Below, in pieces: positions 6,859-44,340 of a DNA stretch of 64,000 bases (positions are counted from its first letter, which is position 1; each line of letters opens with the position of its first letter). The notes under the pieces are model-generated. The model made no database searches and had not been told where the DNA came from. It worked only from the letters and a program-made list of their open reading frames with translations. The translations under genes and the position numbers were made by a program. Source of the stretch: a virus; IMG/VR virus record IMGVR_UViG_3300023174_000120, positions 22,663-86,662 of that record; one strand, 5' to 3'.

Positions 6859-9800
6859 TTAATTTCCTTCTAGCGGCTGGTCTTCGTCTGTAGTAATAGC
6901 GTATCCGTCATCTCCAACCAATCCCGGATCACCTCCATAATAATACTTATCTGGTAATTCAGCAGGGCGCAACTGTAAGAACTTGGCCTGCGTTGTGCTG
7001 CTCACCATTAAAGATTTAGTTTCATCAGAACTTATTATATCATTCCATACTGTTGTTAAATCTTTCTTGGTCACTACTAATTTTATTCCCCCCTGAACTC
7101 CGTTATCAATATTTAATATTAAATCAAAACTATTTTTAATTAGCAAACTGGCATTTGATTCTGTATTAACAGTGAATCCTAATTCTGTAAAATCATAACC
7201 TACAGCAAGTTTAACATATGATAAAGCATCTGTTAATGTAACTTGCCCGTCACCATTTAAATCATACAATAAGTCTTCCGGTAATACTCCAATGGCCATT
7301 TTAACAGCATCTATTCCGAAATTTAATGCCATTGTTTTATCAATAATTTCAACAGTGAATTCTGGCGGTTGATAGTCTAATCCTCTGTAAACATAACCAT
7401 TAACTGATGACGAATCTACTGAGTTTTCATATATCCATACCTGATTAGTATCTTCAACAATATATCCTTGGCCCATAACTGTAGTGGATGGCAATAAATC
7501 TACTGTAGAGGTGGTACCAATAGATGTATATCTAGGACTATCATAAGATACTGTAATATCTTGATGGAATGTTCCTGTCTTGTTTAATTTTCGACCGCCA
7601 TACCGAACATCTATTTGATTGCTAATAAATCCCTGTCCTTCTTGAAGTATTAAATTAGTACTAAATGTTATTCCATCATTGATATATTGATGATAGGTTC
7701 CTGTATTTGCAACATAATCAATAGAACTGATAGAATATGTATTGGTTGATGTAGAAGTCAATAACACCTGTTTGTAAATATTTTCTTTGTAAGGAACAGT
7801 TTGATCTAACCCTTGATCAATAACTTTGGTATTTTCTTCGCTGTAAAAACTAGGTGCTGTTCCTAATGTTGATCTACGCAACTGTCCCAACACATTTCCT
7901 GTAACTGTAAAGAATTCTATACGCTCGCCGTCAATAATTACAACACCGGGCATATTTTTAGCCACTAACGGTGGGGTCAATACCGACGCATCTGCTACAT
8001 AAATCTCAGTATCGGTAAACGATAACGGCTGAGTTAAGTAGGTTGTATTTTGTTTGCTCAGTCTCTTAAAATGTGTTCTATTAAAGATGTCATTGAACAC
8101 TCGATAACCTAACACAGTAGTAGCCAATGGCGAGTCACTGATCGATATAATAGTAATTTTATCACTTGCTGTATGCTCAAATCTCGAACTTATTTGAACT
8201 GTAACTAGATCGTCTAAAATTTCATAATCTAGTTTATTAACCAGTGGTATACCATTGACAATAACCCAAACATAATTGTCATTGAGAGCCGGGCGACTGA
8301 TTTGATATCTACGCCCAGCAAGTCCAATAAACTGCTCAGTTCTAATAAACATATTATCATGATTGTTATAGGTAATAACTTTGATCTGTTTACTAGTTGA
8401 GAATCCTGGCTCTAAAGATAATACATTACCAACAATATCATAATCATAGTTAGGCGTAGCCGGTTTTGATAACACAGCCACTACATCATTAACCTGACAA
8501 ATACCAAAATTAATAGAAACCTGTGTGCCACCAACTACACTGTATTCAAAACCTGGTTTAAGTTCAATACCATTAACATACACTCTTAAACTGCTGCCTA
8601 ATGTATATGTACCTGTATTGTTGATTGGGAAAGTGGTACTATAAAGGTTAACAACTTTATAATAATCAGTATGAGGAGGTCTGAGAATATTTCTTTGACC
8701 AGTAGCAGGATCATACAATTCCACAATGGCTTCTTCCGCTACAGGTTCTATATTTCCCGGAGGATACGATAAAGTATAATAGGTGCTGCCAGTGATAGTG
8801 AATGTTTCTTCCTTAACTTCATTAAAATACTTGTTGTAAGTACCAAAGAACCATGCAGTTACCGTATTGGTTTTATCGGTAGGTAATCTATGTACATTAA
8901 CAGCAGCTCTACGATTAATAGAATTAGCATAGGTTAATTCATAGTAAACACCGGTTCCTGTGGACTCAATTTTTTGACCATTCAGTGTTACATAAGCACT
9001 TTTTACAGACTGATAAGAAGATAGACTTTGCGCCTGAACTGTTGATGTTCCTATTACAGAAACACTGGACGAATCTATCACTCCGGCTTCTTGATCTGGT
9101 CTCCCGCCACCAATGCTAACAATAGTATATCCTAAATTACCACTTACTGCTTGTGGTGGTAAAACAATTTGATTGGCAGCCCAATCAATGGTATAAGTGC
9201 TGGCAGTAAAATTAGTTCCTGTAATATAAGTGAATATATTATTGTTAAATGTTACTATGATGTTGTCGGCACTGGGTGGAACTATTCCCAATGTTTGAGT
9301 AGTAGTTGTGCCGGCAACAACATTAACATATGAACTTAATACAATAGGACCACCTTGAGGATTTTTAGTATAAACATTTATACCTAGGCTTTCATTAACT
9401 TCTCCAGGTACTAATTCTTCAGGAGCATAACTGGTGTTGGCTGTAATAAACCCGTCGCCATCTATTGTAATATCCTCAGGATTAATACCTAATGCACCAA
9501 CTCTGGTAGAAGTATTCCAGGTGCCGCCTTCGATAGCGCTATCTAAAATACTCATTTCAGAATCTAATGTCCAAAATTCTATGCTAGAACCTGTTGAAAT
9601 TGTTGCAAAAGTTGTTGTATTAAATATAACAAGATTAGTTGATGTGTTTATATCAACTACTTGAACTGTAGCAGTTGTAAATGTTTGTGTTACTGTGCTG
9701 GATACATTAACATATTGCCCTATCGATACTCCTGCTATACTAGATAAGTGAATCGAAGTCCAAGTTCCCCCGACCGAAGATGAAGCAGAACTAGAAGTTG

Positions 9801-12800
9801 TGCTGGTATAGAATCCAACACTGTCTGCATACGAAGATGAATCATAACCGGTATATACGTCCCAGTCTGTGGCATAGTCAAACATTAATCCTTCAACTCT
9901 AGTCTTAGGATAAACAATTCCAGTCATAAGTTGGCCAAGGTCTAATCCTGGCATGCCAGCTGTTGCTGTATAAAAATTTAAAACTCTATCGGCAGCATTT
10001 AATAAACTGGTTTTCTTATAATAGGATACCACCAATGTTTGACCGATTGGAGGGGTATAATTTAAAAATACAATTTTACTTCTATTTTTACGATATTCCC
10101 CAGTAAATTGTCCATAATCTTCATCGTAATAAGTTATAGAATAATCTAAACCTAATACCAGTGCGCCGCCTAATGTAACTGTAATTTTAGATTTATCGGG
10201 CTCTGCTTCCCAACTCAGCACAAATGAATTATCTGAACCATTACAAATAAAGGTGTCAACTGTTTGAAGATTTTCAATTTCAATACCTCTACTAACCCTA
10301 TCAAACTTCATTCCAATAAGATTTGTTCTAACAGTACCGCTGGTTAGATAATTGTCTGTCCACGATTTCCACGGATATACATTGGTTAATGTATTGGTAA
10401 TTGTAAAGGTAGAAGAACTTTCACTAGCAAGAATTTCTATGCTGGTAAATTGATTTGTATTTTTATCATAGTATGAAGGAAGATCAAAGTCAGTGTTGTA
10501 CGATCCAGTGGGCTCTAATACACTGTACTTAGATGTGAAACTTCTAATGTTGGTATGATAAGGTTTAACTTCCTTGATATAATCTTCAAAGTATTCAGTA
10601 TTTTGTAATTTATAAACTGTGCGTTGATCTAATGTTCCAGCATTGTTTACTACATTAATAAAGGATGTTTTAAATGCCCAATCTAATAATTTCTGTTCAC
10701 TTAGTGCATATTTTACTGCTTTGAAAAATAAGTAATTCCAATTAACTTTTAAGTCATTGATAAACAAATCATCTCTTAATGCTATCAAAATATAATTTAA
10801 TTCAGTGTCAGGTGTTTGATCATATAGTGTTTGATCATAACTACTTACTTGATCAAAGTTAAGATTACTATTAGCAAAATCCCAAACAGTGTCTAATATT
10901 TGAATTGTACCATTTTCACTGTAGACAATATTAAACTGCTCACTAAAATCTCCTACCATACCATCAAGAACTCTTTCTACTATAATATAGTATCCTAAAC
11001 CACCATTTTTAATTTTGACATAATCCCCGGCCTGTAGATCTTCTAGTGATTCTAATTCATATATTTCGTCAACGGTATAAGCATAATCTACGAATGGGTT
11101 ATAATCAGGGCTGATCCAATCACGATAGTCCCAATAGATGGTAGTATTATACTGTTGTGTATGTATTCTTGACCAAGTACTAGTTGACACATCGTAAACA
11201 AACTCGCTCCACTTTCCATTATTTTCGGCATCTGCTAAAACAATTACAGTATAAGATCTAACTTGCAATACCGGCGCCGTTGTAAACTTAGATCCAGCAT
11301 TTACTATTTCGGTATCAATTACACTGCCATATTGGTCAATAATTGTTTTAATTTCGGCCAAAGAATCAGTGGGCAATTTAACCAATGGGCTTATCTTATA
11401 TCCATATCCCGGATTGTCAATATTAACAGTGACTATTCTACCATTTTCTATTTCACAAGAAATTTCAGCCTTTACAAAATTTCTAGTATCAACTGTTAAT
11501 AATCCTTCGTTGTCTTCAACTACTTCATCGTACCTATGACTATCTTCATACGGCACGGTTTCTTGTTTGTTTAAATTAGCAAAACTATAATTGCCAGTAA
11601 TACGATTCGTAATTAGCACACCGTTAGAAAATTCAACAATATTTCTAATGGCCTCGGATCTATTTTTAAACAGAGTTTGGCGTGGTCTGATACTGATCCC
11701 GTACCTGGCTCTGGAGGACAAAGCAGGATCAGGAACTGGATTACCTAAACTATCGTGCCCTAATAAACTGTCAAATAGTTTCTTTTCTAACAGTGTATTT
11801 GGTCGGCTGGTTGCTAATCCTTCCTGTAGTAGTAACCATTCAGTGTGCAATGGAATAGGATTATTAATAATATCGTAATTGATATTAATATGTATTCTGT
11901 CATCAACTAGTGTATCACCCAGATTAGATAACATCATAGAATCTTGATCAATAATCGCAGCATATTTTAACCCGTATAATGTTGGGTCAGCTATAATACT
12001 TGCTATTTGATTGGCAGTGATTCTTCTGTTTTTTGTATTAGGTAATGTTACTTTATTTTTTACCCAGAAATAATATCTGTTTTCAAATGACAAAGTAGCA
12101 GAATTATAGACCTGTTTGATAGATACCACAGAATCATCAGGGTATTTAGGTTGTCCACTGATTCCCTGTGATAATCCTGCTACTGTATCAGCAATTTGAG
12201 ACCATTCGCTAGGCAAGTATGGAGTTCCTACCCATTCGTATATGTCAATGCTGGAACCAGGAAACACTCGTCCCCAGTTGTTTTTTCTATAGGTTACATC
12301 TGCCTGTTCGTACCAAACATATTTTACTGTACTGAGATCCCACCATAACTCGCCGACATGACTATCTAACCAGTTGATATCGGTATTATTAACGGTAGCA
12401 CTAGTGCCGGTTGAATATATTGCAGGATCTGTAAGAGATTTATATCTTACGTCTTGATCTGCTTGTCCGGCAATTTTACCTTTTACCGGATCAATGGTGT
12501 CGAGGTAATCAATTACTTCTTCATTAAAAGAATCAATTATGGAAATTTTCTGTACGGTGTTTAAATCCACTAATTGATTTTGTTTTCTAATTGCTTGAAG
12601 ACTGTCAGATTCTGTGTCTATTTTATAAAATTGATGAACAGCACCCGGTGTATCGCTACTATAAGCAGGAGCACCAACATAGATGCTGTTGTCATTAACT
12701 GCTACGCTATATCCATAATTGGTTCCAGAACTGGCATTCACAGGAACAAGTTCGTAAGTTAATCTAAATTTATTTGTTTTTCTATTATAGATATAAACCG

Positions 12801-15800
12801 ATCCCGAATCATTAGATGAATCGTAAAATACTGTAGAGTCAGCGTCAAATGTTGTGGATTCAGCAAGTGTAGCACTGTCTGGGTTTTTGGCATAGGGAGT
12901 GGTCGGATCAGGCTGATCAGCAGACGATAACAGATCTTTATAGGTATCAAATGTTGTAATGATATGTTTATTTTTACCTATAGCAGAAATAACTAATTCT
13001 GTATTATTATTGTTAATATCAATTGCTTGCCCAAACTTCATTCCGACTGTCGGTAGCGGATTCTCTAAAACACTATCTAATACAAATAAATGGTTAGTTA
13101 ATGTATACACAGCAACCTTACCATAAGATTGATCAGTACCCCTAGCATCTATTGCCGAAACAAACAAATATGATCCATCTGAAGAAACTTTAACAACTTC
13201 TCCAAATTTAGAATGGTCGCCGAATGGTGAGCTAATTGTTTGAATATAAGTTAATGATGTTCCTGTAAAGATTGAAACTATCCCAGCATTGTTTGAATGT
13301 CCGGGGGCGCCAATTGCTATTACACCAGCATCGTCAGATCCACTGATTGAATATCCCCAACGATCCCCGGAAGCTAATGTTACACTGGAAGTCGTAACTG
13401 ATTCAACGTAACTCAGATCAATTGTTCCGGTAGTAACAGTGCTGGTAGTTACAAGATAGGCATAAACATGACCGGTTCCTTGATTATAAATCTGGGGAGC
13501 GCCCACAAGAAGAAGTTTTCCATCATCGGTTTCTGTTTGTTGAACATAGAGACTATGTCCAAATCTTTCATAACTAGAAGGATTAGGACTTAACAAAACA
13601 CGTTGGGTATATTCTTCGTTTGTAAGCGGATCAATTGAGCTGATTTTTACCAGCCCTTCTTGAGTAGAGGTGCTTACTGTTCCTGTATTATAAGCATATC
13701 TAATACTGCTAAAATCGTTAGATTTAGTTCCACTTGCACCCGGTGCTCCGGCAAAAAATATCCCATAACCAGAAGACCCTGTAACACCAATAAAATCTCT
13801 ATCATCGTATGCTAAAGAATATCCAAATTCAGCATTGCCGCCTGGCGCATGATAAGTTATTGAATTGGTATTAAGATTATATCGAATTTTAACTTCAACG
13901 CTACCTTTATTTTTTTCAACATCATATTTTTCAGCGTATACAAATACTGTTCCTGTATTGTTGGTAGATTTATACCCAGTAGCGCCAACCATAAAGATAT
14001 TTGAATTTTTGGCTTTAGTTAAACTCCATCCCAACTTTTCATTGGCTATTGAATTTGATCCAGCAATTGAATATCTATTGTAATTCTTTACCTTTTGATA
14101 AACTACCCAATTACCACTCCCATCATCGTCAACCCACAATTTTGTTTTAACTGGGAATTGTAATAACGTGTTGTCAGAGGGTAATTCATCGTACAAACTA
14201 TAGCGAGAATTAACAAATTTAAACAACAGACCAGTCGATGCTAGTTCTGTAATAGCATTAGGGGTCGGATAATCAATGACAAACTCTGTAATTTTATTAC
14301 TGACAGATTTTACTATATAAATTCCATCAATTCTGCTGTCGCACTCATATATAGCAATAATATCGCCTTTAGATAGGTAATGAGTCTTATCCGTTTTTAA
14401 TGTAAGTTCGCCTGTAGTACCGTCCTCTACAGAAGCTCCTATTATTCTAGAACTGGATAATGTGTATCTAAACACACCCCAGTCATTATTTTTCTTGGCT
14501 GCTACCCAAACTGTATCTCCACGTTTTATAAGTGTACCAGAGTCTTGAATAGATAATACAGCAGTTTCATTATATGCCGTATAATTAACATCATCAAAAT
14601 TCACATATCCAGCAATAGGCAATTGAAACATATCTGTGCTGGAAGTAGTAACAAATGTTGTAGTAGCAACATAATCAGTAGGAACAATAGACCAACTGGT
14701 TGACGTACTGTAATAAATTAAATCATTAGGAACGGACGGAACTGAATCGATAAATTTGATAATTTGTGGATTTTCAATGAACTTACCTTCCACAAGAGAT
14801 ACTTCTAATTCCTTAAATGTTTCGTAAGATCCATAATGTCCTACTCTAAATGCCCATTCTTCTGTATAATCTATATCGCCTTGAAGATTATGAATACTGG
14901 CCTTGGCCAATTTAGCAATTGAATTACGTGTTCCTTTTTCTTTAATATACCCCTGATAAAACTTGTACTGACTAATCGGATTAGTGAAGATATTGTTTAG
15001 ATAAACCCTAGGAGTGTAACCTGTAAGATGCTGAGCCATCTTTTGTTGAGCAGAATCAAAATTGTCAATATCTAAACTGTAAAAATCTTCAAACTGACTG
15101 ATTTTATAATCAAAGTTAGGAATAAGATCTGCAGTAGGTTTTGATCTTAAAACAGTCCACTTGGTAAAGTCAAATTCAGAATCACCAGGTATGTTTTTAT
15201 TAGCAGAATAATAATTTCCATTGAATCTAACAACATCGGCATATCTATAATCAGTATATGTTTTCCAATCGTCTACTACGGCAGTATCATAGATAAATCC
15301 TGGACTAAAATAATCTCCGTTCCATCCTGCTGTTCTAAATCCAACCAGCTTCATTCTACGTTGACGATATCCAGTTTCTACATCGTATATGGTGTCATTG
15401 AACATTGTGGTATTGTTAAACACCATTGCATGTTCTTTTTGTACATTATTAAGAACAACAAAGTATATACCTTGTGGAGTATTGCTGGTGCGAATAGTAC
15501 AGGTGCCATTATCTCTGTTCACGCTTAAATTACTATGTCTAATAGCTTTTCCATTGACCTGTAATACTGCACGATGATAAAAGTTATCAAATATATTATC
15601 GACCACACTATCTGCCGAATAAAACTTAACCTGATCAGCAAATGGACTTAATGTGATTACGCTATTGTCTGCCCAATTCTGTGTAGTCCAAAACAAAAAC
15701 TCATTTCCTGAAAATTTCCAATCTAATATTGTTTGAAGATCGTTATTAAATTGATCAAAAATAAATCCTTGATCTTCTAACCATGCTCCATACCCTACAA

Positions 15801-18800
15801 TAAGATCATAAACTTCTTGAATTTTATCAAACTCAGTGCCGTATGGAATCTGAACTACTTTTTTATCATATCTAATAGCAGTCTGTACACTGACACCGCC
15901 GTTGATCGGTAATGATGGTAATAATTGGAAAAGATTAGCGTTAAAGGTATCTCCACTCTTATGATTAATTTTTACTCTGTAAAATCTATCACCATATGAA
16001 ACTATCTGGCCTTGTTGATAAAATACTCCATATGTTGCCGATTGTGCTGTAGTAACGTCAACATCGGTCAATCCAGTGCTACCACCCGATGAACTAGACT
16101 TCCATAAAACATACGGTTGAGAAACTCCACCTACTGTAATTGTCGGTGTGGTGGCATTACGAACTGCTGGATATACATTAAAATATGGTCTATAATTGTC
16201 ATACCCCCTAACTATAAACTTTCCATTAGACTTTTGAACAATAATACCAGAAATTGCTGTTACCTTAACTGGATTGCTGGTGTTTAAAATGAGATTATAA
16301 TCTTCAGGGGGGAGTATTGCCCCCGAACTTGAACTGGTAGGATCAATTGCATCAATAATAATCTGCATTTTATTTTTGCTAATGAATCCTCCGACCTTAT
16401 AGAACAAATTAAAATCAACATACGCAAGATCGCTCTTTAGCTCTTGTATATAATTTCCAGTTCTTTGTCTACCGGCCTCACTGACAAATACTGAATATCC
16501 AGTTGTTAAATCACTACCATTGCCGTGTATTTTAACCACATCGGGACTTAAAAACTGATGATCATCGCCATATGTCCATTGATCAGCAATATTTTTTGTA
16601 AGTCTAATAGGATCATACAATAACGCAGCATAGTCAGCGGGTTTGGTTAATGCCAATAATTTCTGCAATACAAATGGCCAATAGCTACTACGACGCCATG
16701 CTGTTTCCGCAGGTCCTTGCTGATTAAACGTCCATAAACTTCTAATTTTGCCAGGGGTTATGCTGTTGTCTTGAACAATTAATTCAGTAGGATCTAATAA
16801 ATCGCCAAACTCATCAACTGGTATTACATCCAATAATCCTTCGCGCACATACAAAGGATTAACTACTCCATTGATTCTACCTGCTGATAAATCTTCCCAA
16901 AGCAAACTATTACCACTGGTGTATGGGGCAGGGCCATAGAGGGTGCTCCACCAATCAGGCTCAATTGTAAATCCTAGCATTTCCCAAGGAGCAGTGTGGG
17001 GGCGATCTGTATCGTAAAAATATTTGTAAATTGCTCTCCAACTACCTGTTAGATTGGTGTCTACAGTGGAATTGTAAGTGTTGGTATAATTCCATGTGTA
17101 AGGATTACCTTCGTCAAAAGACGAATTACTGGTAATTTCTATACCATAGATACCTGCCCAATTATTAAAATCGCCATTGATTATACCCTTTATTTCGTCT
17201 TGAGTGTATTGTGTAGCTCTAAATGCTCCAGGAATAACAGTATTATAATCTAATAGTTCGTTACGATACGATGCCTTGATATTATTAAAAATACGTTTTT
17301 CAAATTCTAAAATAATATCATCTCTGTAATCATTATAGGCAATCATTAAACTACCGTCGTGACCTTGAATAACCATTGTATCTTGGTCTACGTAAGTTGT
17401 ATCATTAAAAATCTTAGGAATATATTTTGGATATAATCCTAATTTTGTAGGAGTAGATGGAACAAAATTACCAACTGTATTGGTGTAATCATTTATAACA
17501 ATGGTATCGCCTACTGCCAAATCAACTAGTATTTTAACACTGGAATCATTAACTTCAAATTGATATTCGATATCATGTATCAATTGTGATCCATTAAGAT
17601 ATACCAACACTGCTCTCATTGACAACACCAAAGGATCATAGTCAGTAGTAATCGAATAAATCTTATTTCTGCTATTGGTAACCGTCCAAGTTCTTACAAT
17701 CTTATCTGTACCATATGGAGTCATATCAGACAGATAATACGGACTTAATGTATCTTTGTCGGCATTTAATTCATTAAGAACCTGATCAACAGCCGCAACC
17801 GGATCAGTCTGATTATCAATCTTTGTTATTTTTCTTAAGAAAGCCAATTTATACTGATTGTACTGCTCTGCTGCCTTATCTATTGCGTCAATTAAATTGT
17901 GTTCTTTTTTACCAATGAATATTTGAGCAAAGGCCAACGGATTTATATTTGAAATTAATCTACGTTGACTATTGTTAACATGATCTGCTATCTCACTTAA
18001 TGTAAGACTAGAAATTGATCCATTTAACGGATTGTTAGTTAACCCTAACGGCGGTTCATAATAAGTATCACCTGTTTCCGGCGATACCAATGTTGGAATA
18101 GGATAAGTGTCGGTCCCTGACCAAACATTAACATACTCGTTATCTAATTTACAATAAGTAATACCGGTAGAAATTATTTTGGTAGTCTGACTATCAACCG
18201 AAATTGAAATCGTATCAGTCATGAAATAGTTTTTAAACAGATAACTACCAGTTCCTACACTATTTCGATATTTTATTTTAAATTGTAAAATAGGATCGTA
18301 AATAGTTCCTATTTCATATCCAAATATTTTATTTCCAGCAAAATCACTTTTATAATAAGTGATGTCACTATAACTATTTCCTTGATTATCAAAAAGATCA
18401 AATAATGGTGCTTGATTTATAGTTGTATGTTGCTGAGCATATATCCAAGTATCGCCATCATACCACCAACTGGTACCAGCATAATCGTTGCCAAGAATAG
18501 CACTGGTTACCGATCCTGCTGCCGGTACTGCTATTTCTTCAAGCGTTAATCTTGTTGTGTTTTGAATGACAACATAATTAACTTGATAAATTTTACTGCG
18601 CACTGTCGAATCAGTATCAGCAGTGAAAATAACTTTATGACCCTGCTCTAATAACACTCCATCAACATAATATCCAGCCGACCCTTCTACTGTATTAAAA
18701 GCATCGGTGGTTGTGGTATCAATTAAATCAATATCCGGAATTCCTACACTGCCATAATTGTATAATTTTAAATCTGCTTTAAATTCAATGATAGGACGTC

Positions 18801-19680
18801 TTGCTCTTTTATCAGATGGATATACCGGCTGTTGATCAGATGCTGCTGCACTGATTTTAATAACATCTTTATGCACCCATCGATTATATCTAGACCAAGA
18901 ATTTAGATCTTTACTGGCTCGATTAATGGTAACATATTCGATATTCTCTGGAAGATTTTTGTAACCATCAAAAGGATAATCATCAAAAGGATCGGCATCA
19001 AAATGATCGATATAAAGTGTTGTAATATCTTCTGAAGAATTTAAATCATCGTATGGTACTAATTTAATTACAGATCCAACACCTTCGACAAAAAAGTCTC
19101 GCCCTTGATAAGATTCAGGAGAAACATTTCCTAAAAATCTTAACTTCATTCCATTTAATAAATCAATTCCGTTATAGGTGTAACTGGAAGTTGTAAGAAT
19201 ATCAGTTTCAATGTTCAACACCTGTGTGCTGGTATTGTTGATGACTACATTATCAGGGCCGTTAACTAACCAATAGTAATTTTGATAATTTACAAATTTA
19301 TCCCAATCAATATGAGGGTCGTATGAATAAAAACTACTTCTATATAACCTATCAAAATTATCAGGATACCCACCATTCAGCTGAATCTCGTTAGTAAGAT
19401 CATCTATGCCTATTACATCTTGCACTGTTCCTAAACTGTCTTTAATAACACAGGCTGGTTCTAATTGATAGTTTCCACGAAGGGGTGATGATTCAGCAAC
19501 ATAGATATCGCTAGTGGAAACATAATTAGGCGTAATTGTAGATCCTATGTAACCATCTATTCTTTCTAGCTGGGCAGGATTAATTAATTGATCAAGTGTA
19601 CTGGATAAGAATTTAGAATTTTTTTCAGTTCTTAAAAATTCAGGTAGTAAATTAATTGATTTAATATCTTTAGCGGCCAT
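6859..19680 (-). CDS. giant 4273-residue virion/baseplate-associated protein
   Basis: A single uninterrupted 12.8-kb frame directly downstream of gp6, the place where T4 has gp7, so a baseplate or tail-periphery role is inferred. Visible parts: an N-terminal region beginning SINLLPEFLRTEKNSKFL; a helical stretch near 585-615 (HNLIDAIDKAAEQYNQYKL); a seven-blade FG-GAP-like beta-propeller at about 1880-2355 (FGHSL...LLLVGAP, WGYSI...IAIGAPG, YGYSV...IYVGAP); repeated beta domains of the form VxVNGxxLxxxxDYxI at about 690, 3170, 3475, 3565, 3695 and 3805; and a dockerin/EF-hand-like loop DLNGDGQVTLTDAL at about 4140 near the C-terminus. Few charged low-complexity regions are seen. I recognise similar giant proteins in aquatic T4-like phages but no proven function. 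Start ATG lies 2 nt after the gp6 stop. Confidence 0.85.
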   Translation of the reverse strand: MAAKDIKSINLLPEFLRTEKNSKFLSSTLDQLINPAQLERIDGYIGSTITPNYVSTSDIYVAESSPLRGNYQLEPACVIKDSLGTVQDVIGIDDLTNEIQLNGGYPDNFDRLYRSSFYSYDPHIDWDKFVNYQNYYWLVNGPDNVVINNTSTQVLNIETDILTTSSYTYNGIDLLNGMKLRFLGNVSPESYQGRDFFVEGVGSVIKLVPYDDLNSSEDITTLYIDHFDADPFDDYPFDGYKNLPENIEYVTINRASKDLNSWSRYNRWVHKDVIKISAAASDQQPVYPSDKRARRPIIEFKADLKLYNYGSVGIPDIDLIDTTTTDAFNTVEGSAGYYVDGVLLEQGHKVIFTADTDSTVRSKIYQVNYVVIQNTTRLTLEEIAVPAAGSVTSAILGNDYAGTSWWYDGDTWIYAQQHTTINQAPLFDLFDNQGNSYSDITYYKSDFAGNKIFGYEIGTIYDPILQFKIKYRNSVGTGSYLFKNYFMTDTISISVDSQTTKIISTGITYCKLDNEYVNVWSGTDTYPIPTLVSPETGDTYYEPPLGLTNNPLNGSISSLTLSEIADHVNNSQRRLISNINPLAFAQIFIGKKEHNLIDAIDKAAEQYNQYKLAFLRKITKIDNQTDPVAAVDQVLNELNADKDTLSPYYLSDMTPYGTDKIVRTWTVTNSRNKIYSITTDYDPLVLSMRAVLVYLNGSQLIHDIEYQFEVNDSSVKILVDLAVGDTIVINDYTNTVGNFVPSTPTKLGLYPKYIPKIFNDTTYVDQDTMVIQGHDGSLMIAYNDYRDDIILEFEKRIFNNIKASYRNELLDYNTVIPGAFRATQYTQDEIKGIINGDFNNWAGIYGIEITSNSSFDEGNPYTWNYTNTYNSTVDTNLTGSWRAIYKYFYDTDRPHTAPWEMLGFTIEPDWWSTLYGPAPYTSGNSLLWEDLSAGRINGVVNPLYVREGLLDVIPVDEFGDLLDPTELIVQDNSITPGKIRSLWTFNQQGPAETAWRRSSYWPFVLQKLLALTKPADYAALLYDPIRLTKNIADQWTYGDDHQFLSPDVVKIHGNGSDLTTGYSVFVSEAGRQRTGNYIQELKSDLAYVDFNLFYKVGGFISKNKMQIIIDAIDPTSSSSGAILPPEDYNLILNTSNPVKVTAISGIIVQKSNGKFIVRGYDNYRPYFNVYPAVRNATTPTITVGGVSQPYVLWKSSSSGGSTGLTDVDVTTAQSATYGVFYQQGQIVSYGDRFYRVKINHKSGDTFNANLFQLLPSLPINGGVSVQTAIRYDKKVVQIPYGTEFDKIQEVYDLIVGYGAWLEDQGFIFDQFNNDLQTILDWKFSGNEFLFWTTQNWADNSVITLSPFADQVKFYSADSVVDNIFDNFYHRAVLQVNGKAIRHSNLSVNRDNGTCTIRTSNTPQGIYFVVLNNVQKEHAMVFNNTTMFNDTIYDVETGYRQRRMKLVGFRTAGWNGDYFSPGFIYDTAVVDDWKTYTDYRYADVVRFNGNYYSANKNIPGDSEFDFTKWTVLRSKPTADLIPNFDYKISQFEDFYSLDIDNFDSAQQKMAQHLTGYTPRVYLNNIFTNPISQYKFYQGYIKEKGTRNSIAKLAKASIHNLQGDIDYTEEWAFRVGHYGSYETFKELEVSLVEGKFIENPQIIKFIDSVPSVPNDLIYYSTSTSWSIVPTDYVATTTFVTTSSTDMFQLPIAGYVNFDDVNYTAYNETAVLSIQDSGTLIKRGDTVWVAAKKNNDWGVFRYTLSSSRIIGASVEDGTTGELTLKTDKTHYLSKGDIIAIYECDSRIDGIYIVKSVSNKITEFVIDYPTPNAITELASTGLLFKFVNSRYSLYDELPSDNTLLQFPVKTKLWVDDDGSGNWVVYQKVKNYNRYSIAGSNSIANEKLGWSLTKAKNSNIFMVGATGYKSTNNTGTVFVYAEKYDVEKNKGSVEVKIRYNLNTNSITYHAPGGNAEFGYSLAYDDRDFIGVTGSSGYGIFFAGAPGASGTKSNDFSSIRYAYNTGTVSTSTQEGLVKISSIDPLTNEEYTQRVLLSPNPSSYERFGHSLYVQQTETDDGKLLLVGAPQIYNQGTGHVYAYLVTTSTVTTGTIDLSYVESVTTSSVTLASGDRWGYSISGSDDAGVIAIGAPGHSNNAGIVSIFTGTSLTYIQTISSPFGDHSKFGEVVKVSSDGSYLFVSAIDARGTDQSYGKVAVYTLTNHLFVLDSVLENPLPTVGMKFGQAIDINNNNTELVISAIGKNKHIITTFDTYKDLLSSADQPDPTTPYAKNPDSATLAESTTFDADSTVFYDSSNDSGSVYIYNRKTNKFRLTYELVPVNASSGTNYGYSVAVNDNSIYVGAPAYSSDTPGAVHQFYKIDTESDSLQAIRKQNQLVDLNTVQKISIIDSFNEEVIDYLDTIDPVKGKIAGQADQDVRYKSLTDPAIYSTGTSATVNNTDINWLDSHVGELWWDLSTVKYVWYEQADVTYRKNNWGRVFPGSSIDIYEWVGTPYLPSEWSQIADTVAGLSQGISGQPKYPDDSVVSIKQVYNSATLSFENRYYFWVKNKVTLPNTKNRRITANQIASIIADPTLYGLKYAAIIDQDSMMLSNLGDTLVDDRIHININYDIINNPIPLHTEWLLLQEGLATSRPNTLLEKKLFDSLLGHDSLGNPVPDPALSSRARYGISIRPRQTLFKNRSEAIRNIVEFSNGVLITNRITGNYSFANLNKQETVPYEDSHRYDEVVEDNEGLLTVDTRNFVKAEISCEIENGRIVTVNIDNPGYGYKISPLVKLPTDSLAEIKTIIDQYGSVIDTEIVNAGSKFTTAPVLQVRSYTVIVLADAENNGKWSEFVYDVSTSTWSRIHTQQYNTTIYWDYRDWISPDYNPFVDYAYTVDEIYELESLEDLQAGDYVKIKNGGLGYYIIVERVLDGMVGDFSEQFNIVYSENGTIQILDTVWDFANSNLNFDQVSSYDQTLYDQTPDTELNYILIALRDDLFINDLKVNWNYLFFKAVKYALSEQKLLDWAFKTSFINVVNNAGTLDQRTVYKLQNTEYFEDYIKEVKPYHTNIRSFTSKYSVLEPTGSYNTDFDLPSYYDKNTNQFTSIEILASESSSTFTITNTLTNVYPWKSWTDNYLTSGTVRTNLIGMKFDRVSRGIEIENLQTVDTFICNGSDNSFVLSWEAEPDKSKITVTLGGALVLGLDYSITYYDEDYGQFTGEYRKNRSKIVFLNYTPPIGQTLVVSYYKKTSLLNAADRVLNFYTATAGMPGLDLGQLMTGIVYPKTRVEGLMFDYATDWDVYTGYDSSSYADSVGFYTSTTSSSASSSVGGTWTSIHLSSIAGVSIGQYVNVSSTVTQTFTTATVQVVDINTSTNLVIFNTTTFATISTGSSIEFWTLDSEMSILDSAIEGGTWNTSTRVGALGINPEDITIDGDGFITANTSYAPEELVPGEVNESLGINVYTKNPQGGPIVLSSYVNVVAGTTTTQTLGIVPPSADNIIVTFNNNIFTYITGTNFTASTYTIDWAANQIVLPPQAVSGNLGYTIVSIGGGRPDQEAGVIDSSSVSVIGTSTVQAQSLSSYQSVKSAYVTLNGQKIESTGTGVYYELTYANSINRRAAVNVHRLPTDKTNTVTAWFFGTYNKYFNEVKEETFTITGSTYYTLSYPPGNIEPVAEEAIVELYDPATGQRNILRPPHTDYYKVVNLYSTTFPINNTGTYTLGSSLRVYVNGIELKPGFEYSVVGGTQVSINFGICQVNDVVAVLSKPATPNYDYDIVGNVLSLEPGFSTSKQIKVITYNNHDNMFIRTEQFIGLAGRRYQISRPALNDNYVWVIVNGIPLVNKLDYEILDDLVTVQISSRFEHTASDKITIISISDSPLATTVLGYRVFNDIFNRTHFKRLSKQNTTYLTQPLSFTDTEIYVADASVLTPPLVAKNMPGVVIIDGERIEFFTVTGNVLGQLRRSTLGTAPSFYSEENTKVIDQGLDQTVPYKENIYKQVLLTSTSTNTYSISSIDYVANTGTYHQYINDGITFSTNLILQEGQGFISNQIDVRYGGRKLNKTGTFHQDITVSYDSPRYTSIGTTSTVDLLPSTTVMGQGYIVEDTNQVWIYENSVDSSSVNGYVYRGLDYQPPEFTVEIIDKTMALNFGIDAVKMAIGVLPEDLLYDLNGDGQVTLTDALSYVKLAVGYDFTELGFTVNTESNASLLIKNSFDLILNIDNGVQGGIKLVVTKKDLTTVWNDIISSDETKSLMVSSTTQAKFLQLRPAELPDKYYYGGDPGLVGDDGYAITTDEDQPLEGN

Positions 19681-22600: not shown

Positions 22601-23084
22601 CAGAATTTATAACGCCAATAAACTGTTGATACCAATTTGAATTGGTAGAATCATTCCACAATATGGTAGTATTGGCTAAATTATTGCCGGATCCATCAAA
22701 TACACTATCAGTTGTAGATATAGAATTTAATTTAAGGAACCCCGAAGCAGGTGTATTACGGGTAGGAACATAACTAACCAATTGTGCTAGTCTTAATATG
22801 CTGTCTCGACGTTGAGCGGTTTCTAAGAAATTTTCACGAGCATTAAGGTCAATACGAAAACTTAAATTCTGCCCAAGATAAGCAATAACATCAATTAACG
22901 CAATGTATTCACTGCTTTCGATATAATCATTAAAATCTTCAGGATAATTTTCCTGAAGATAAGAAATCATTGTTCTTCGTAAGGTTTCAAAATCATAGCT
23001 TTTGAAATCAGCATTTCTGAAAGATTGATATATTTTTTTCCAATCTTCGCTTACTAGTAGTTTTGTGTTAGTTGATGGAATCAT
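19683..23084 (-). CDS. 6: gp6-like baseplate wedge subunit
   Basis: Baseplate wedge protein that links wedges into the inner ring around the hub. The N-terminus carries the conserved gp6 pattern (VSEDWKKIYQSFRNADFKSY, YIESSEYIALIDVIAYLGQN, FRIDLNARENFLETAQRRDS, VPTRNTPASGFLKL). The C-terminal 150 residues (KSISDEIVFQPVRYKVLFGD, LKSRILSAIQNFFSLENWDFGQSFYFSEL) match the baseplate J-like end. At 1133 residues it is far longer than T4 gp6 (660), with extra beta-rich material in the middle. It follows gp25, the usual wedge partner. A late promoter core sits 20 nt upstream; no clear Shine-Dalgarno sequence. Confidence 0.92.
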   Translation of the reverse strand: MIPSTNTKLLVSEDWKKIYQSFRNADFKSYDFETLRRTMISYLQENYPEDFNDYIESSEYIALIDVIAYLGQNLSFRIDLNARENFLETAQRRDSILRLAQLVSYVPTRNTPASGFLKLNSISTTDSVFDGSGNNLANTTILWNDSTNSNWYQQFIGVINSAIPGSFVFGKPYDRATIDGILTEQYRISSTNSDVPIYSFTKNINGTAMNFEIVPATFSGATTIYEETPRPANTFSFLYRNDNQGFNSANTGFFVHFRQGSLNRSTFGLDRPVANEIIGINSTNINNSDVWLWQLDGNGGYSTLWTRVPDVVGNNIIYNSVDKNERNIYSVTSRDQDQIDLNFADGSFGNLPKGQFVIYYRQSNGLTYVIKPEQMGGIVVEIPYTNKQGQSHSLTLNMGLRYTVTNSAATETNTSIQNKAPQAFYTQNRMVTAEDYNIAPLTLGSDILKVKSVNRISSGLSKYFDLSDVSGKYSKTNIFAADGMIYKNNHEQIFEFNVTNKNEILAILKQKLEPIVASSALRSFYFDQYDRPSLSGYGVWQAPVIGQPRGYFLGQSTELSGPLNVGVSTSNNLSYITTGALVKFAAPTDKYFSSTGKLVSSAGNNTTSYLWAKVLQVIGNGSNDGQGALDDGTGPIILSNYVDNGAVAVEIIPNFINVLSTAFENELVNLCINKRNFGLSFDKLTRTWNIVVDTNIDLVNPFSLVYQGNTENSNRDASWLIAFTWTGNNYKVRYRITDYIFESEKETAFFIDNDSINYDFVSNTVVKDQVTVLSVNTISTGTTALNKDYRWQIDGSIIEPDGYVEPKKVRVSFYDYDNAGQITDPDSFNNIVDPASTNSYDNLYKFVYFKLSDDGLRYQLQDSDLFTPFPNPDSVVGTPSDGDLYYFYDPDYNVVKSYSADLAGTLDPWVYEPDYFAYPGRSNLKFHYIHNSGEDRRIDPSKSNIIDVYLLTASYDTAYRSWLITKTGTEPMAPTSQSLEQNYGGKLDLIKSISDEIVFQPVRYKVLFGDLADINLQAKFKAVKNPAIPVSDNELKSRILSAIQNFFSLENWDFGQSFYFSELATYIMNIMTPDITNFVIVPKSNNNFGSLYEVACLTNELFINGATANDIEIIPAITANQLKTSSIVTNSGN

Positions 23085-33167: not shown

Positions 33168-33616
33168 GCATATCACGCGGTATTAAGGCTTGCACTGGCC
33201 AACTTCAAGTGCCCTAAACCTGGACAATCGTATCACAGGGATGGAAACCTCTTGCCGCTGAGAGTTCTCAATCACTACCCGCAAGGATGTAGACAGCCAA
33301 GACCTGCTGTTTGATTGTTAGAAAATATTAAAATAGGCCAAAAGAAGGGAGAAAAACCCTGGGCATACCAATATGTTAGTGTATATTGTTATGCTGCCGT
33401 CATATCGAAGACGGGGCTCGAGGTACCGGATGACCGCCTCTGCAACGCCCTAACACTAAGTGAACATAAGAACTCGGATAATGTTCAATATTCTTCGCCC
33501 TATGCGGGCGAAGTGTGACCAATGAATCTGGATAATATTAAATCTTCTTCGAAGAAGACCATATGATATGAGCGCTGTGCGCGAAATATCAAGTGAACGC
33601 AGTTCACTTCTCAGTA
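33168..33616. ncRNA. hairpin-rich noncoding stretch, candidate structured RNA
   Basis: The only long gap without a convincing gene, between the convergent nuclease gene and the gp26 extension. On the + strand it holds successive hairpins: GCACT/AGTGC (33192-33212), CTTGC/GCAAG enclosing TGAG/CTCA (33251-33285), AGACAGC/GCTGTTT (33291-33312), GAGG/CCTC enclosing CGG-ATGA-CCG (33420-33440), TGAACAT/ATGTTCA (33461-33487), CTTCGCCC/GGGCGAAG (33493-33513), palindrome TCTTCTTCGAAGAAGA (33543-33558), GCGC-TGT-GCGC (33572-33582), AAGTGAAC-GCA-GTTCACTT (33591-33609). None is followed by a T tract. A TTG-started 67-codon frame (33315-33518) crosses several stems and lacks a Shine-Dalgarno sequence. Could be a noncoding RNA, bidirectional RNA-end protection, or both. 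Confidence 0.55.
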
Positions 33617-33847
33617 TTAAAAGAAAGGAAGACCTGATTCTTTAGTTGTTTCTAAGTTCTCACCAATAATACGACTAATAATATCTCTATTTTCGTAATC
33701 TAATTGAAAGGCTTGCTCTATGGTTATAGAACCTCTCATGTACCAACACAGTCTAAACAATTCTTTCTTTAATGCTTTTGATTCTTTTTCGTGGCTCTCA
33801 ACTAGTTTGACAATGTCATCATTGGATAATGTTAAGAGCCTTGAACG
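33617..33847 (-). CDS. -1 frame extension of gp26 (76 codons), made by frameshifting
   Basis: In the -1 frame relative to gp26 the reading continues from the slippery heptamer without a stop for 76 codons: it starts RSRLLTLSNDDIVKLVESH, has KALKKELFRLCWYMRGSITI in the middle, and ends ENLETTKESGLPFF. The motif CWYMRG...GLPFF is familiar from small proteins next to gp26 in aquatic T4-like phages. No ATG or GTG occurs in this frame before the ATG inside WYMRGS, and no Shine-Dalgarno sequence, so independent initiation is unlikely. The predicted fusion is 286 residues of gp26 plus 76, in all 362. By analogy with gpG/gpGT it would be a tail-assembly chaperone form. Coding potential is strong; the mechanism is inferred. 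Confidence 0.8.
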   Translation of the reverse strand, partial: RSRLLTLSNDDIVKLVESHEKESKALKKELFRLCWYMRGSITIEQAFQLDYENRDIISRIIGENLETTKESGLPFF

Positions 33848-33853
33848 AAAAAA
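33793..33853 (-). promoter_or_regulatory. programmed -1 ribosomal frameshift signal
   Basis: Heptamer T TTT TTC in the gp26 frame (33853-33847), spacer GTTCAA (6 nt), then a 10-bp stem GGCTCTTAAC (33840-33831) with GTTGAGAGCC (33802-33793), one G-U pair, whose loop holds a second hairpin CAATG-ATGA-CATTG (33824-33811). The gp26 stop TAA lies inside the 5' arm of the stem. Spacing and structure fit classical -1 frameshift sites. Confidence 0.8.
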
Positions 33854-34704
33854 TTACTATTGTCCATGGTTATAGGTAGCTCATATACAGCAGGGGCACC
33901 AGCAAGGATCTGTTCTTCAGTTGAGTGAACTGTTAATGGTAAGATACCCACGGTCTTTTTATTTTTGTTGATAAGATCCTGAATCTTTTGTATAAGACCT
34001 GCGTCTGCATTTTGAATAAATTCTCTAATGAAGTTGCGATCTTCTACAAAATTATCAGGTGTCTTTATATAGAATACGCTTTCTGCAATCATTTCTACTG
34101 TGAGATCGGTTAATTTAGAGATACCCTGATTGAAAAGTTCTAATTTTTGTTCATCTGTTAGATCAGAACTAGCAACAGACTGAATGGTTTTTTGTGATTC
34201 AAATGTTCTAATACTAACATCAGTCATGTGTCTATAGGACAAAGGTTTTACACCACAGATAATATCCGGACTAATTTCCACACTGTCAATCCACTGTGTT
34301 GTGGATAAAATTTGATCCATTACGGCAGTTAAATCAATTTGATGGTCAACCGTTTCATCCGTTCCTGGGACCTGATGAGAAATAGTCATTGTACCGCCAT
34401 AGGTAGCAATTCTAATGGCAATTAGTATAAGGTCAACATCTATTCCTGAACACCTCCACGCATTTTTAATATTGGGCATACAACTTTGAATAACATCGAC
34501 AATTGCTTGCCCATTCATTAATGCGTCTGGAGTTTTAAAAGTTAACTCATCTTTGGCTGTCATAGAATATACTGGAAATTCATTGTTCTCCGGTATATCA
34601 ATGCTGCCTTCCTCCCAAAAGAGACCATTACTTGGCAATCTAATATAGATTTTTGGTTGCCTCATGTAGCCAAGTAAAGGGTTTACTTTTGATTGAATCG
34701 TCAT
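33832..34704 (-). CDS. 26: gp26-like baseplate hub protein / tail assembly protein
   Basis: 290 residues of the T4 gp26 baseplate protein family, needed for hub assembly. Recognisable parts: QPKIYIRLPSNGLFWEEGSI, FPVYSMTAKDELTFKTPDAL, NGQAIVDVIQSCMPNIKNAW, and DVDLILIAIRIATYGGTM, then a helical C-terminal half (TDEQKLELFNQGISKLTDLT, NFIREFIQNADAGLIQKIQD). Longer than T4 gp26 (208). It is transcribed divergently from the tape measure gene, with a perfect TATAAATA about 35 nt upstream and Shine-Dalgarno GGAGATAAAAC. Four codons before the stop the frame crosses a slippery heptamer, so a fraction of ribosomes should make an extended product. Confidence 0.9.
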   Translation of the reverse strand: MTIQSKVNPLLGYMRQPKIYIRLPSNGLFWEEGSIDIPENNEFPVYSMTAKDELTFKTPDALMNGQAIVDVIQSCMPNIKNAWRCSGIDVDLILIAIRIATYGGTMTISHQVPGTDETVDHQIDLTAVMDQILSTTQWIDSVEISPDIICGVKPLSYRHMTDVSIRTFESQKTIQSVASSDLTDEQKLELFNQGISKLTDLTVEMIAESVFYIKTPDNFVEDRNFIREFIQNADAGLIQKIQDLINKNKKTVGILPLTVHSTEEQILAGAPAVYELPITMDNSNFFVQGS

Positions 34705-34771: not shown

Positions 34772-36853
34772 ATGGTAGCACCATTGCTAGCAGGAGCAGC
34801 AGCAGCAGCAGGAACGGCGCTCGGTGGAGTGGCAAAAGGTGCCGAAGTTGCTGGCAAGGCGCTCGATAGGGCTGCAGGTATAGCTGAAACTTTCATATCT
34901 GCATCGTTCAGTATGTCTAAAGCCGCTACCACCGGGGCAGCCAGTCTCGGTGATATGGGAGCCGCAGTAGGTCAGGTAGCCAGTTTGATTCCAGTGGTAG
35001 GAGCAGCCTTTGCCTCGGTGTTGAACACTGCTATCGCAACCTTAGAAAAAAATATAGAAACACAAAAAACTCTCAGTGATGTTGGAGCAACATTCGGGGG
35101 TGAGCTTAAAACTCTTCGTGCCTCTGCCAATAGCACGTACCTCAGTATGGATCAATACGCAAAGGTAGTTAGTGCAAGTGGAGATGTATTGGCATCATTT
35201 AACGGCGGTGTACAAAACGGAACTAAAAACTTTACCAATGTTTTAACAAGTCTACTAAAAAATGGATCAACTACCGGAGATATGTTGGCCAATCTTGGCA
35301 TAGGGTTCGAAGAAGGCGCTCAACTAACAGCACAATTCATGCGTGGGTTGGGTAATATGAATAGAACCGGTCAAATGAGTGCTGACCAATTGGCAAAGGC
35401 CAGTGCTGATTATGCTGTAGAATTAACTGGACTTAGTCAGTTAACTGGACAAAGCAGAAAAGCACTAGCTGAAAAAGTCAACGAGGAAATGGCCGAAGCA
35501 CAATTTCAAAATTTTCTCAACACACTTGATCCCACAGAAGCTGCAAAACTACAAGAAGCTGTGGCTCAAGAATTTGCGGTATCGGGTAAAGCAGGAGCCG
35601 ATGCGTTAAAAGCATCTGCTGCTGGCTTTCCACCAATGACACAGGCTTCGAGATTGTTTACAGCTACACAAGAAGCCAGTGTAGGGAGACAACAAGAATT
35701 AATAAGCAAAATAAGAGACTCTAGTGTGGATCTTGATACCTTTCGAGTTCAATCAAAAACAATATTAGCAAACTCTCTAGAAGGCATGAGAGAAGATCAA
35801 AAGAAAATTGCTACCGCGGCCATGGCAGGGGTTTTAGCCGGAGGATCAGAGCTTAGTAAATCTATTGAATCAATTACTAAATTGTTAAACGCTACATATG
35901 GAAAAGGTGCTGCTGAAATAGAAGGTTATTTTAAACAACTTAGATTAACAGCCCCCGATGCAGGTACAGATGCCGCTATAGGTGTTAGACAAACAAAAGA
36001 AATAATAGCACAGTCAAATGCTACTTTATCAAAACTACAGCCATTTCTTGACTCGGCCCTAGTAGCAGGAACCAAAATGTCTAGCATATTAAATGGAGTT
36101 GCTGGAGTGATAGCCGGTAAACTACCATTTATAACTAATTTTGTTTTGGGAAAGATGGAGATACTGACCGACAAAGCAGAAAAGGCAATAGGTGCAGAAC
36201 TAACTGAAGAAAATGCAATGGCAGCTTTTGACAAATTTTTGAATAAAACCGGAGAATTAGGAAAAACTGGAATTGATGCTCTATTTGGTGATAAAGATGC
36301 CCAAAGAAAATTCTTTGCAGATTTAAAATCTGGATGGGATAGTGTAATGAAACATATTAAAGATTCAATTCCTAAACTTTCAGATTTTTTATTTGGAAAT
36401 CGACCAGCACCGGGTGGTGAGGGTACACCTAGTGGAACACCCCCAAAACCGCCACAAACTCTGGCAGAAGAAATCGCAGATGCATTAAGAAAACAATTAG
36501 GATTAGGAGCTCCGAAAATTTCAGAAGGAGCCCCAACAGAATTGCCAAAGCCCCCTCCGGGATACAAATATCCGGGCATGGCTGACGGTGGCGAAACGAC
36601 ACCCGGAACTTATCTTGTCGGAGAAAGAGGACCCGAATTAGTAAGCCTCGGTAATCGCGGTGATGTTATTAACAATGACAATCTCACTGCTTTGATATCT
36701 GCGTTGTCTAATCAGAACGGCATGGGAGAAAGTATAAATCAGTTAAATAACACTAATGGTCAAATGCTAGCAGCAATTAAAGACTTGATAGATATTAGTA
36801 AACGAAATTTAACTGCTACTCGAGGCCTAAACGGAAACCTATTCGCGGCTTAA
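34772..36853 (+). CDS. 29: tail tape measure protein (gp29-like)
   Basis: 693-residue tail-length determinant around which the tube polymerises. The Ala/Gly-rich N-terminus (LLAGAAAAAGTALGGVAKG) and hydrophobic stretches IPVVGAAFASVL and AGVIAGKLPFITNF are typical, the centre is helical (LAKASADYAVELTGLSQLTG, ESITKLLNATYGKGAAEIEG), a Pro-rich linker follows (about 545-595), and the C-terminus has the tape-measure signature MADGGETTPGTYLVGERGPE with LVSLGNRGDVI. T4 gp29 is 590 residues. The neighbour gp26 with its frameshifted form stands directly upstream on the other strand, which matches the usual pairing of tape measure and chaperone genes. The gp29 name is by function; sequence match to T4 was not tested. 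Confidence 0.87.
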   Translation: MVAPLLAGAAAAAGTALGGVAKGAEVAGKALDRAAGIAETFISASFSMSKAATTGAASLGDMGAAVGQVASLIPVVGAAFASVLNTAIATLEKNIETQKTLSDVGATFGGELKTLRASANSTYLSMDQYAKVVSASGDVLASFNGGVQNGTKNFTNVLTSLLKNGSTTGDMLANLGIGFEEGAQLTAQFMRGLGNMNRTGQMSADQLAKASADYAVELTGLSQLTGQSRKALAEKVNEEMAEAQFQNFLNTLDPTEAAKLQEAVAQEFAVSGKAGADALKASAAGFPPMTQASRLFTATQEASVGRQQELISKIRDSSVDLDTFRVQSKTILANSLEGMREDQKKIATAAMAGVLAGGSELSKSIESITKLLNATYGKGAAEIEGYFKQLRLTAPDAGTDAAIGVRQTKEIIAQSNATLSKLQPFLDSALVAGTKMSSILNGVAGVIAGKLPFITNFVLGKMEILTDKAEKAIGAELTEENAMAAFDKFLNKTGELGKTGIDALFGDKDAQRKFFADLKSGWDSVMKHIKDSIPKLSDFLFGNRPAPGGEGTPSGTPPKPPQTLAEEIADALRKQLGLGAPKISEGAPTELPKPPPGYKYPGMADGGETTPGTYLVGERGPELVSLGNRGDVINNDNLTALISALSNQNGMGESINQLNNTNGQMLAAIKDLIDISKRNLTATRGLNGNLFAA

Positions 36854-43060: not shown

Positions 43061-43143
43061 ATACTGTTCGCTCGAGAGAGAGTTTATGCGGAAACCCAAC
43101 CGCGTAGGCAATAGAACTGTCTATAACAACAAGGAGAAATAAA

Positions 43144-44340
43144 ATGGGACGTCCAATTAAAAAGAAATTCTTTGCGAATTTAAACGCACCTTACCAAGAT
43201 CATGCCACAGGTGGCCCAACTGGTGAAGGTGGAGAAGGTGTTGCTAGTGTAACAATCACTACAACTGGAACATATGTTGGCACATTGCCTACAGTATCTT
43301 TTGGTACACCTGATCTAGCATTAGGAACAACAGCGACTGGTGTTGTTCACGGTATGGCCTTAACTGCTACTGTAAATACCACAGGTACAGGTTATGCTTA
43401 TGCTAATACGCTAGCAGTTGGTGGAGGAACCAATGTTACTTCGGCAACTTTTACTGTTAGTGCTCTTAGAACAGTTTCCATCAATAGCACCCCACAAAAT
43501 GGCGGAAGCAACAACGACACAGGAGATCGCTTTTCCTTCAGCGGCTCATACGGTGGCGGCTCGTGGACAACACCACTAGAAGTTGTAGTTACCGCAGCAG
43601 CAGGTGGTGTAGCGTCAGGAGTAGCGATTTATAGTCCAGGTGTTTGGTCTGGAACCGCAGCCCCGGCCAATACTATCGGTGCTACACGCACACAAACCTA
43701 CGGTGCTATTGATATGAACGGAACCAATCTTCAAGTAACACTAACCGATTGGGGTGTTGCTGCTGTTACAGTAGCCAACGGTGGAGATTATACAGCAGTT
43801 CCTAGTAATCCTGTATCCACTAGTGGTAGTGGAAATGGAAATGCTAAGTTAAATGTCACCTACGGTGTTAAGAGTGTTGCGATTACCAATGCAGGAAGTC
43901 ATTACTTTAATGTAGCCGATGCTAGTGTTACATTTAGTGGTGGAGCAGCAGCCGGTACTTCTGTGTTAACTAACTTGTATCAGCCGGGCCTAGCAGTTTA
44001 TGTTCATCTTCTTGATGGCACAGAAGGCGCACTGGCCGACATTATGAAGCAAGAAGCAAGCCGTCGCTACTTGGTCAAAACCAGAACAGAGAATGGTAAA
44101 GTTGGTCAATGCCGTCTAGTTGCTAGAAATCCCGGCGACCTATATGTTGGTGAAATGAGTCTGATCGCTACTGATACAGAAGGTTGTACCTACTTTGTTA
44201 CAAAACTAACAGCACATAGAGCTTATCTAGTTCAGAGATCCAGTGCTGGTGCTGGATACAGATTTGCCGATGGTTCGTCCGCTGGTTGGTCTATTAGCAG
44301 TGCTAGTGCAGGTATTGTTTCTCTAGCACATACTGCTTAA
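43144..44340 (+). CDS. head-associated virion protein downstream of capsid gene
   Basis: 398 residues, single-gene transcription unit between two terminators. The N-terminus MGRPIKKKFFANLN is a familiar opening of virion proteins in aquatic T4-like phages. The middle (about 30-280) holds several copies of a Gly-rich beta repeat (ASVTITTTGTYVGTLPTVSF, VAAVTVANGGDYTAVPSNP, VKSVAITNAGSHYFNVADA). The C-terminal 110 residues (ASRRYLVKTRTENGKVGQCR, TEGCTYFVTKLTAHRAYLV) form a separate conserved domain. Place after gp23 and the Ig-like repeats suggest a capsid decoration protein comparable in role to Hoc, but a tail part is not excluded. Confidence 0.75.
   Translation: MGRPIKKKFFANLNAPYQDHATGGPTGEGGEGVASVTITTTGTYVGTLPTVSFGTPDLALGTTATGVVHGMALTATVNTTGTGYAYANTLAVGGGTNVTSATFTVSALRTVSINSTPQNGGSNNDTGDRFSFSGSYGGGSWTTPLEVVVTAAAGGVASGVAIYSPGVWSGTAAPANTIGATRTQTYGAIDMNGTNLQVTLTDWGVAAVTVANGGDYTAVPSNPVSTSGSGNGNAKLNVTYGVKSVAITNAGSHYFNVADASVTFSGGAAAGTSVLTNLYQPGLAVYVHLLDGTEGALADIMKQEASRRYLVKTRTENGKVGQCRLVARNPGDLYVGEMSLIATDTEGCTYFVTKLTAHRAYLVQRSSAGAGYRFADGSSAGWSISSASAGIVSLAHTA

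Follow-up and report, generated by a model that had tools for sequence, protein, structure and literature searches.

A small open reading frame overlaps the 3' end of the gp26-like gene of a T4-like phage in the -1 frame, and the question arises of how it is translated and what its product contributes to. We examined this locus in a window of 64,000 nucleotides, corresponding to positions 22,663 to 86,662 of the IMG/VR virus record IMGVR_UViG_3300023174_000120; all coordinates given below are those of the window. In all likelihood, the locus encodes a T4-like (gp26/gp51) tail-assembly chaperone that is made in two forms by a -1 frameshift, a reading that we derive from sequence comparison. The features considered are the following.

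33832-34704, minus strand: gp26-like gene of 290 aa, 0 frame, putative short form of the tail-assembly chaperone (PF12322, phrog_150)
33847-33853, minus strand: slippery heptamer T_TTT_TTC; 0-frame reading (AA)T TTT TTC (sequence and in-phase relatives)
33841-33846, minus strand: 6-nt spacer between heptamer and stem (sequence; nearly constant in relatives)
33832-33834, minus strand: TAA, stop of the 0 frame and end of the short form (sequence)
33793-33840, minus strand: candidate stimulatory stem-loop, 33840-33831 pairing with 33802-33793 around a 28-nt loop (fold z -6.2; covariation in the main register of relatives)
33617-33853, minus strand: -1 module FFRSRLL...CWYMRG...GLPFF, 78 residues including the two Phe (relatives; helical model)
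34772-36853, plus strand: tape-measure-like gene, divergent from the chaperone gene (blastp to RaK2 ORF088)

The 290-aa open reading frame matches PF12322 (T4_baseplate; E 1.7e-8, 34.9 bits with a cut-off of 24.5) and the baseplate hub family phrog_150 (E 1e-10). It is the sole PF12322 gene of the 86.7-kb record, and a single such gene was also found in each of 12 related records (the largest of 328 kb), which are contigs and possibly incomplete; therefore, no duplicated long copy is seen in these records. On the minus strand the 3' end of the gene reads AGT AAT TTT TTC GTT CAA GGC TCT TAA. Here the heptamer T_TTT_TTC (33853-33847) stands in the tandem-slip (X_XXY_YYZ) phase relative to the 0 frame, and four sense codons separate it from the TAA (33834-33832), which agrees to the base with what the earlier note on this DNA had described.

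The -1 frame is open from the TTT at 33853 to the stop at 33619-33617, for 78 codons if both Phe are counted and for the previously claimed 76 after the slip, and it does contain CWYMRG and end in GLPFF. A frameshift at the heptamer would join it to the 0 frame in a long form of 362 residues. In the -1 frame, the codon directly before TTT TTT is TAA, so that a start codon further upstream is impossible; downstream, the earliest ATG sits only within CWYMRG (33738), with a TTG at 33760, and the statement that neither ATG nor GTG occurs near the beginning of the frame holds. The predicted structure of the module is helical (pLDDT 90), and a scan of the extension against NCBIfam and Pfam returned nothing above cut-off.

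Downstream of the heptamer, the 10-bp stem that had been noticed starting six nucleotides further on was recovered, with GGCTCTTAAC (33840-33831) and GTTGAGAGCC (33802-33793) as its arms. Specifically, the region 33855-33775 folds with -23.3 kcal/mol, compared to -9.8 +/- 2.2 for shuffled sequences (z -6.2), and none of 200 shuffles was as good. The minimum-energy fold additionally pairs the slippery run with CGAAAAAG, just 3' of the stem. The core of the stem lies six nucleotides past the heptamer in nearly all relatives. In the 50 sequences that share a common stem register, the first eight pairs are intact without exception and double changes occur at pairs 5, 6, 8, 9 and 10. Overall, 97.4% of the stem cells are paired in this set (87.3% in shuffles) and 46 cells carry double changes, compared to 12 in shuffles. 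The covariation score is 0.282, against 0.103 for shuffled alignments and at most 0.052 for slid registers, of which the best reaches 59% paired. The window and its nearest relatives have the common 5' arm and spacer, but their 3' arm lies 20 nt nearer (loop of 28 instead of about 48 nt), and two further loci (L062 and L078) use yet another 3' arm with a loop of 25. The 5-bp hairpin that had been proposed as nested within the loop is missing from the nearest relatives (L004-L007), and we rejected it as a component of the signal on account of this lack of conservation.

A first search with the 78-residue module found only two phages, Phosso and Atu_ph07 (three records). In viral contigs, 107 relatives were found, of which 80 were kept. 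The sample analysed here comprises 82 loci with a complete site, representing 62 distinct modules from metagenomic and rhizobial-jumbo homologues. TTTTTTC is present in phase in all 82 loci and all 62 modules, and all relatives have an open -1 frame, with FFR (F1 F2 R3) as its invariant beginning. Codon 4 overlaps the stop of the 0 frame and for this reason varies; it is ATG in 12 of the 62 modules and otherwise mostly ATA, CTA, GTA, TCA or GCA. A -1 stop immediately precedes the heptamer in 14 distinct modules, so that in these phages F1 F2 R3 are unreachable by initiation. Furthermore, the last Phe pair is encoded as NNT TTT TTC in all 52 gp26 genes of relatives compared, in which TTT makes up 79% of the other Phe codons and 67% of the other NNY codons end in T; with about 11% expected per independent lineage, this constancy appears to be more than chance. 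The alignment of gp26 loci therefore gave the outcome anticipated for a frameshift site, with heptamer, phase, 6-nt spacer and open -1 frame all conserved. A conserved start codon and Shine-Dalgarno sequence of the small ORF, which the earlier note had named as signs of a separate gene, were found in none of the comparisons among relatives.

By using tblastn with the gp26 protein and with the module consensus, we extended the family to cultured jumbo phages. The in-phase TTTTTTC followed by a -1 module is present in PA5oct, Vibrio 2.275.O, BF, GAP32, RaK2, 121Q, XaC1, XbC2 and SCTP-2, with the module opening FFR in all of them except PA5oct (FFQ), while CM1 carries T_TTT_TTT at the slip site. 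In a profile comparison, the modules of the contigs match those of the jumbo phages with a probability of 99.6 and E 8.8e-25. The identical heptamer was also found in P-RSM4, P-SSM3, S-RIM8, EniLVp02, the KVP40-type phage V09 and Aeromonas AS-zj. Among cyanophages, TTTTTTC occurs in 42 of 42 distinct variants, with the 0-frame stop at a constant distance, and 33 of these variants lack a start codon both within the first 14 codons and within the open frame upstream. Hence, the putative frameshift signal is conserved from the lake-type phage of the window to jumbo phages and marine cyanophages.

The small ORF had been expected to be annotated as a separate gene or missed, and both situations are encountered in relatives: the -1 frame is called a small gp51 in cyanophages and a hypothetical protein in V09, and is unannotated in AS-zj. 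What is annotated as a 60-residue 'gp51' in cyanophages, and as hypothetical ORFs behind gp26 in jumbo phages, is most likely the end of a trans-frame protein and not a gene.

Other arrangements were observed at the edges of the family. In Bacillus phage SP-15 (L100, 2540-2830) and Listeria phage LIS04 (L101, 2570-2880) the extension lies in the -2/+1 frame, and the in-phase heptamer is absent from both chaperone loci, which suggests a different recoding event. Ackermannvirus Ag3 (L184, 2455-2618) and Pseudomonas phage Cygsa01 (L185, 2383-2570) have ATT TTC and TAATG instead of T_TTT_TTC, and their extension may be reinitiated at this stop-start overlap.

With the heptamer constant, what accompanies it appears to depend on the lineage. 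In the freshwater clade to which the window belongs, the best helix scores 25.4, compared to 11.8 +/- 2.7 in shuffles, and an internal Shine-Dalgarno-like stimulator was found in 0 of 61 sequences. In cyanophages, a search for a conserved stem gave none (consensus energy -1.6 kcal/mol; best helix 13.8, 11.8 shuffled); here the strongest complement to the anti-Shine-Dalgarno sequence within the last 400 nt of gp26 is a GAGGG about 10 nt before the heptamer, with a mean of -6.7 kcal/mol over a background of -1.0 +/- 1.1. GAGG is found in 35 of the 42 cyanophage variants, even though GAG represents 26% of their Glu codons. An upstream Shine-Dalgarno-like site at a comparable distance is a known arrangement in dnaX. 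The enterobacterial jumbo phages BF, GAP32, RaK2, 121Q, XaC1 and XbC2 showed short candidate helices only. These contrasts, suggestive and not a formal test because related sequences are not independent, point to a stimulator that differs by lineage, namely a stem in freshwater phages and an upstream Shine-Dalgarno-like site in marine cyanophages. On balance, we lean towards a scenario for the T4 superfamily in which one heptamer was kept and its stimulator exchanged: cyanophages would have the Shine-Dalgarno-like site, freshwater and some jumbo phages a stem that kept its 5' arm and spacer in place but had its 3' arm relocated, and T4 a duplicated gene in place of the whole signal.

Can the small ORF be expressed by other means? 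As a separate gene, it would be translated by termination-reinitiation at an overlapping start codon; the ATGA overlaps of Phosso and Atu_ph07, the ATG at codon 4 of the 12 variants mentioned above, the TAATG of Ag3 and Cygsa01 and its annotation as a gene of its own in several phages are in line with this. However, the ATG is missing from the other 50 variants and from the window, most cyanophage variants (33 of 42) have no start codon nearby, and where the overlap ATG does occur it is accounted for by the TGA stop of the 0 frame. Moreover, the conserved FFR begins upstream of any possible start, and reinitiation leaves the conservation of heptamer and stem unexplained. We thus consider it a very improbable source of the extension in general, although in the minority of relatives with an ATG at the overlap some free extension could be made there too. 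Slippage of the RNA polymerase on the six-T run, giving a mixed mRNA pool in place of ribosomal frameshifting, would be compatible with the occurrence of this run in every relative. Known transcriptional slippage as a rule needs runs longer than T6, and the run always stands in the tandem-slip phase N NNT TTT TTC. It is in addition accompanied by a covarying stem at a constant distance of 6 nt in the freshwater clade and by a Shine-Dalgarno-like site at a ribosome-typical distance in cyanophages, all of which makes this explanation scarcely credible. A programmed -1 ribosomal frameshift at T_TTT_TTC is very likely what these sequences encode.

A further alternative concerns function and sees in the long form a structural baseplate-hub protein unrelated to the tape measure, as the database names (baseplate hub, hub assembly catalyst) imply. 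A review (PMC3004832) reports that some T4 genetic studies place gp26 in the hub; yet it names gp26 and gp51 hub assembly chaperones, with gp51, termed 'of unknown function', absent from the particle. The gene neighbourhood also argues against a hub protein. In the window, the gene lies back to back with the tape measure gene, as had been noted: the divergent gene at 34772-36853 matches RaK2 ORF088 (blastp E 3e-9), which its depositors describe as similar to tail tape measure, and only 67 bp separate the two genes. In both SP-15 and LIS04, sheath and tube genes are followed by the gp26-like gene, the small ORF and the tape measure gene. Finally, Vladimirov et al. 2022 assign the chaperones of T4-like phages, to judge by the title of their paper and by the articles citing it (PMC10885494, PMC12846349). 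A structural hub role is unlikely, and the gp26-like protein is likely a chaperone on the grounds of family, gene order and published assignment. Foldseek searches against the PDB with models of the 0-frame part and of the extension gave no match at E<0.001 for either, and hence no structural support for a relation to solved chaperones of the HK97 gp13 kind, and a PDB sequence search with the gp26 profile gave no match. The reading of the locus as a tail-assembly chaperone frameshift, put forward in the earlier note, is supported by the conserved heptamer, phase, spacer and open -1 frame, its function being assigned by comparison.

Under the frameshift mechanism, most ribosomes would follow the 0 frame to the TAA and release the 290-residue short form. 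A minority would pause at T_TTT_TTC with the stem six nucleotides ahead, whereupon the two Phe-tRNAs could move back by one base onto TTT TTT and 76 more residues would be added, yielding the 362-residue long form. If the chaperone acts like lambda gpG/gpGT, the tape measure protein would be coated by many copies of the short form and a few of the long form, and the C-terminal extension of the long form would recruit tail-tube subunits.

Other features were observed in the window. A Polynucleobacter-1 RNA (RF01718, 106 bits) lies at 33187-33320 on the plus strand, convergent to the frameshift module. Of 20 related phage loci, 14 also have this RNA, again beyond the module and on the strand opposite to it, so that it is a phage-borne RNA neighbouring the tail chaperone. 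A freshwater-2 RNA (RF02980, cis-regulatory type, 58.8 bits) at 43068-43146 (plus strand) is found just before the ORF at 43144, and the ORF at 6859-19680 on the minus strand is, with 4273 aa, very long by phage standards.

The comparison with T4 gives the family a further aspect. T4 gp26 (8.8e-64) and gp51 (3.9e-52) each match the whole of PF12322. When cyanophage/KVP40 types are taken as trans-frame fusions, they align to the gp51 family from profile position 19 to 293, across the junction (probability 99.4, E 4.8e-22), and their extension alone matches the gp51 C terminus (probability 97.4, E 1.5e-11), whereas the alignment to the gp26 family ends at the junction, where T4 gp26 itself terminates. 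The 3' end of T4 gene 26, GAG TTC TTT GAG TTA CTA TAA, holds no slippery heptamer. The extension of the window clade matches gp51 weakly (E 2.5e-3, probability 12), and extensions of freshwater and jumbo phages have a weak sequence link to those of cyanophages and T4 gp51. T4 gp26 thus stops where the others slip, and gp51 corresponds to gp26 plus an extension; we infer that these two paralogues, one short and one long, are the two chaperone forms.

The device had been thought undescribed for gp26 of T4-like phages, which is not so. As PMC10885494 and PMC12846349 relate, Vladimirov, Gautam and Davidson 2022 (Virology 566:9-15) had assigned short and long tail-assembly chaperones to T4-like phages, so that this class of device is already known; according to the citing passages, separate short and long genes exist in some T4-like phages (PMC10885494) and poly-T -1 signals in T4-like chaperone genes (PMC12846349). 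The T4/cyanophage part of the picture is thus probably known. In the literature searched, in which Vladimirov et al. 2022 is represented through citing papers, we found neither the freshwater/jumbo set nor the covarying stem nor the contrast between stimulators, and the lineage-dependent stimulator is apparently not previously reported. The data correct how a core tail gene is annotated across a wide range of phages, fit T4 gp26 and gp51 into the short/long chaperone scheme, and offer a natural series with a constant slippery site and a changing stimulator.

Among known systems, lambda gpG/gpGT and P2 E/E+E' resemble the window in having a single gene beside the tape measure, a -1 shift near its 3' end, and a short and an extended product. 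The lambda site is G_GGA_AAG, while the window has T_TTT_TTC with a conserved downstream stem, and with the methods used no sequence or fold link of the window chaperone to either system was detected. In phage Adele (Vandenendeviridae/Andersonviridae, PMC12846349), a myovirus chaperone gene also carries a conserved poly-T -1 site close to its 3' end, and the extension is likewise misannotated as a separate gene; the motif there is GTTTTT, the phage families are others, and the passages of that article concerned mention no stem. T4 itself has in common with the window the PF12322 family and the pair of a short form that reaches to the slip site and a long form that is extended at its C terminus. 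In T4 the two forms come from separate paralogous genes that lack a slippery site (GAG TTC TTT GAG), whereas the phage of the window has one gene with the site, and the freshwater/jumbo clade differs from T4 in a different-looking extension and in its putative stem-loop stimulator.
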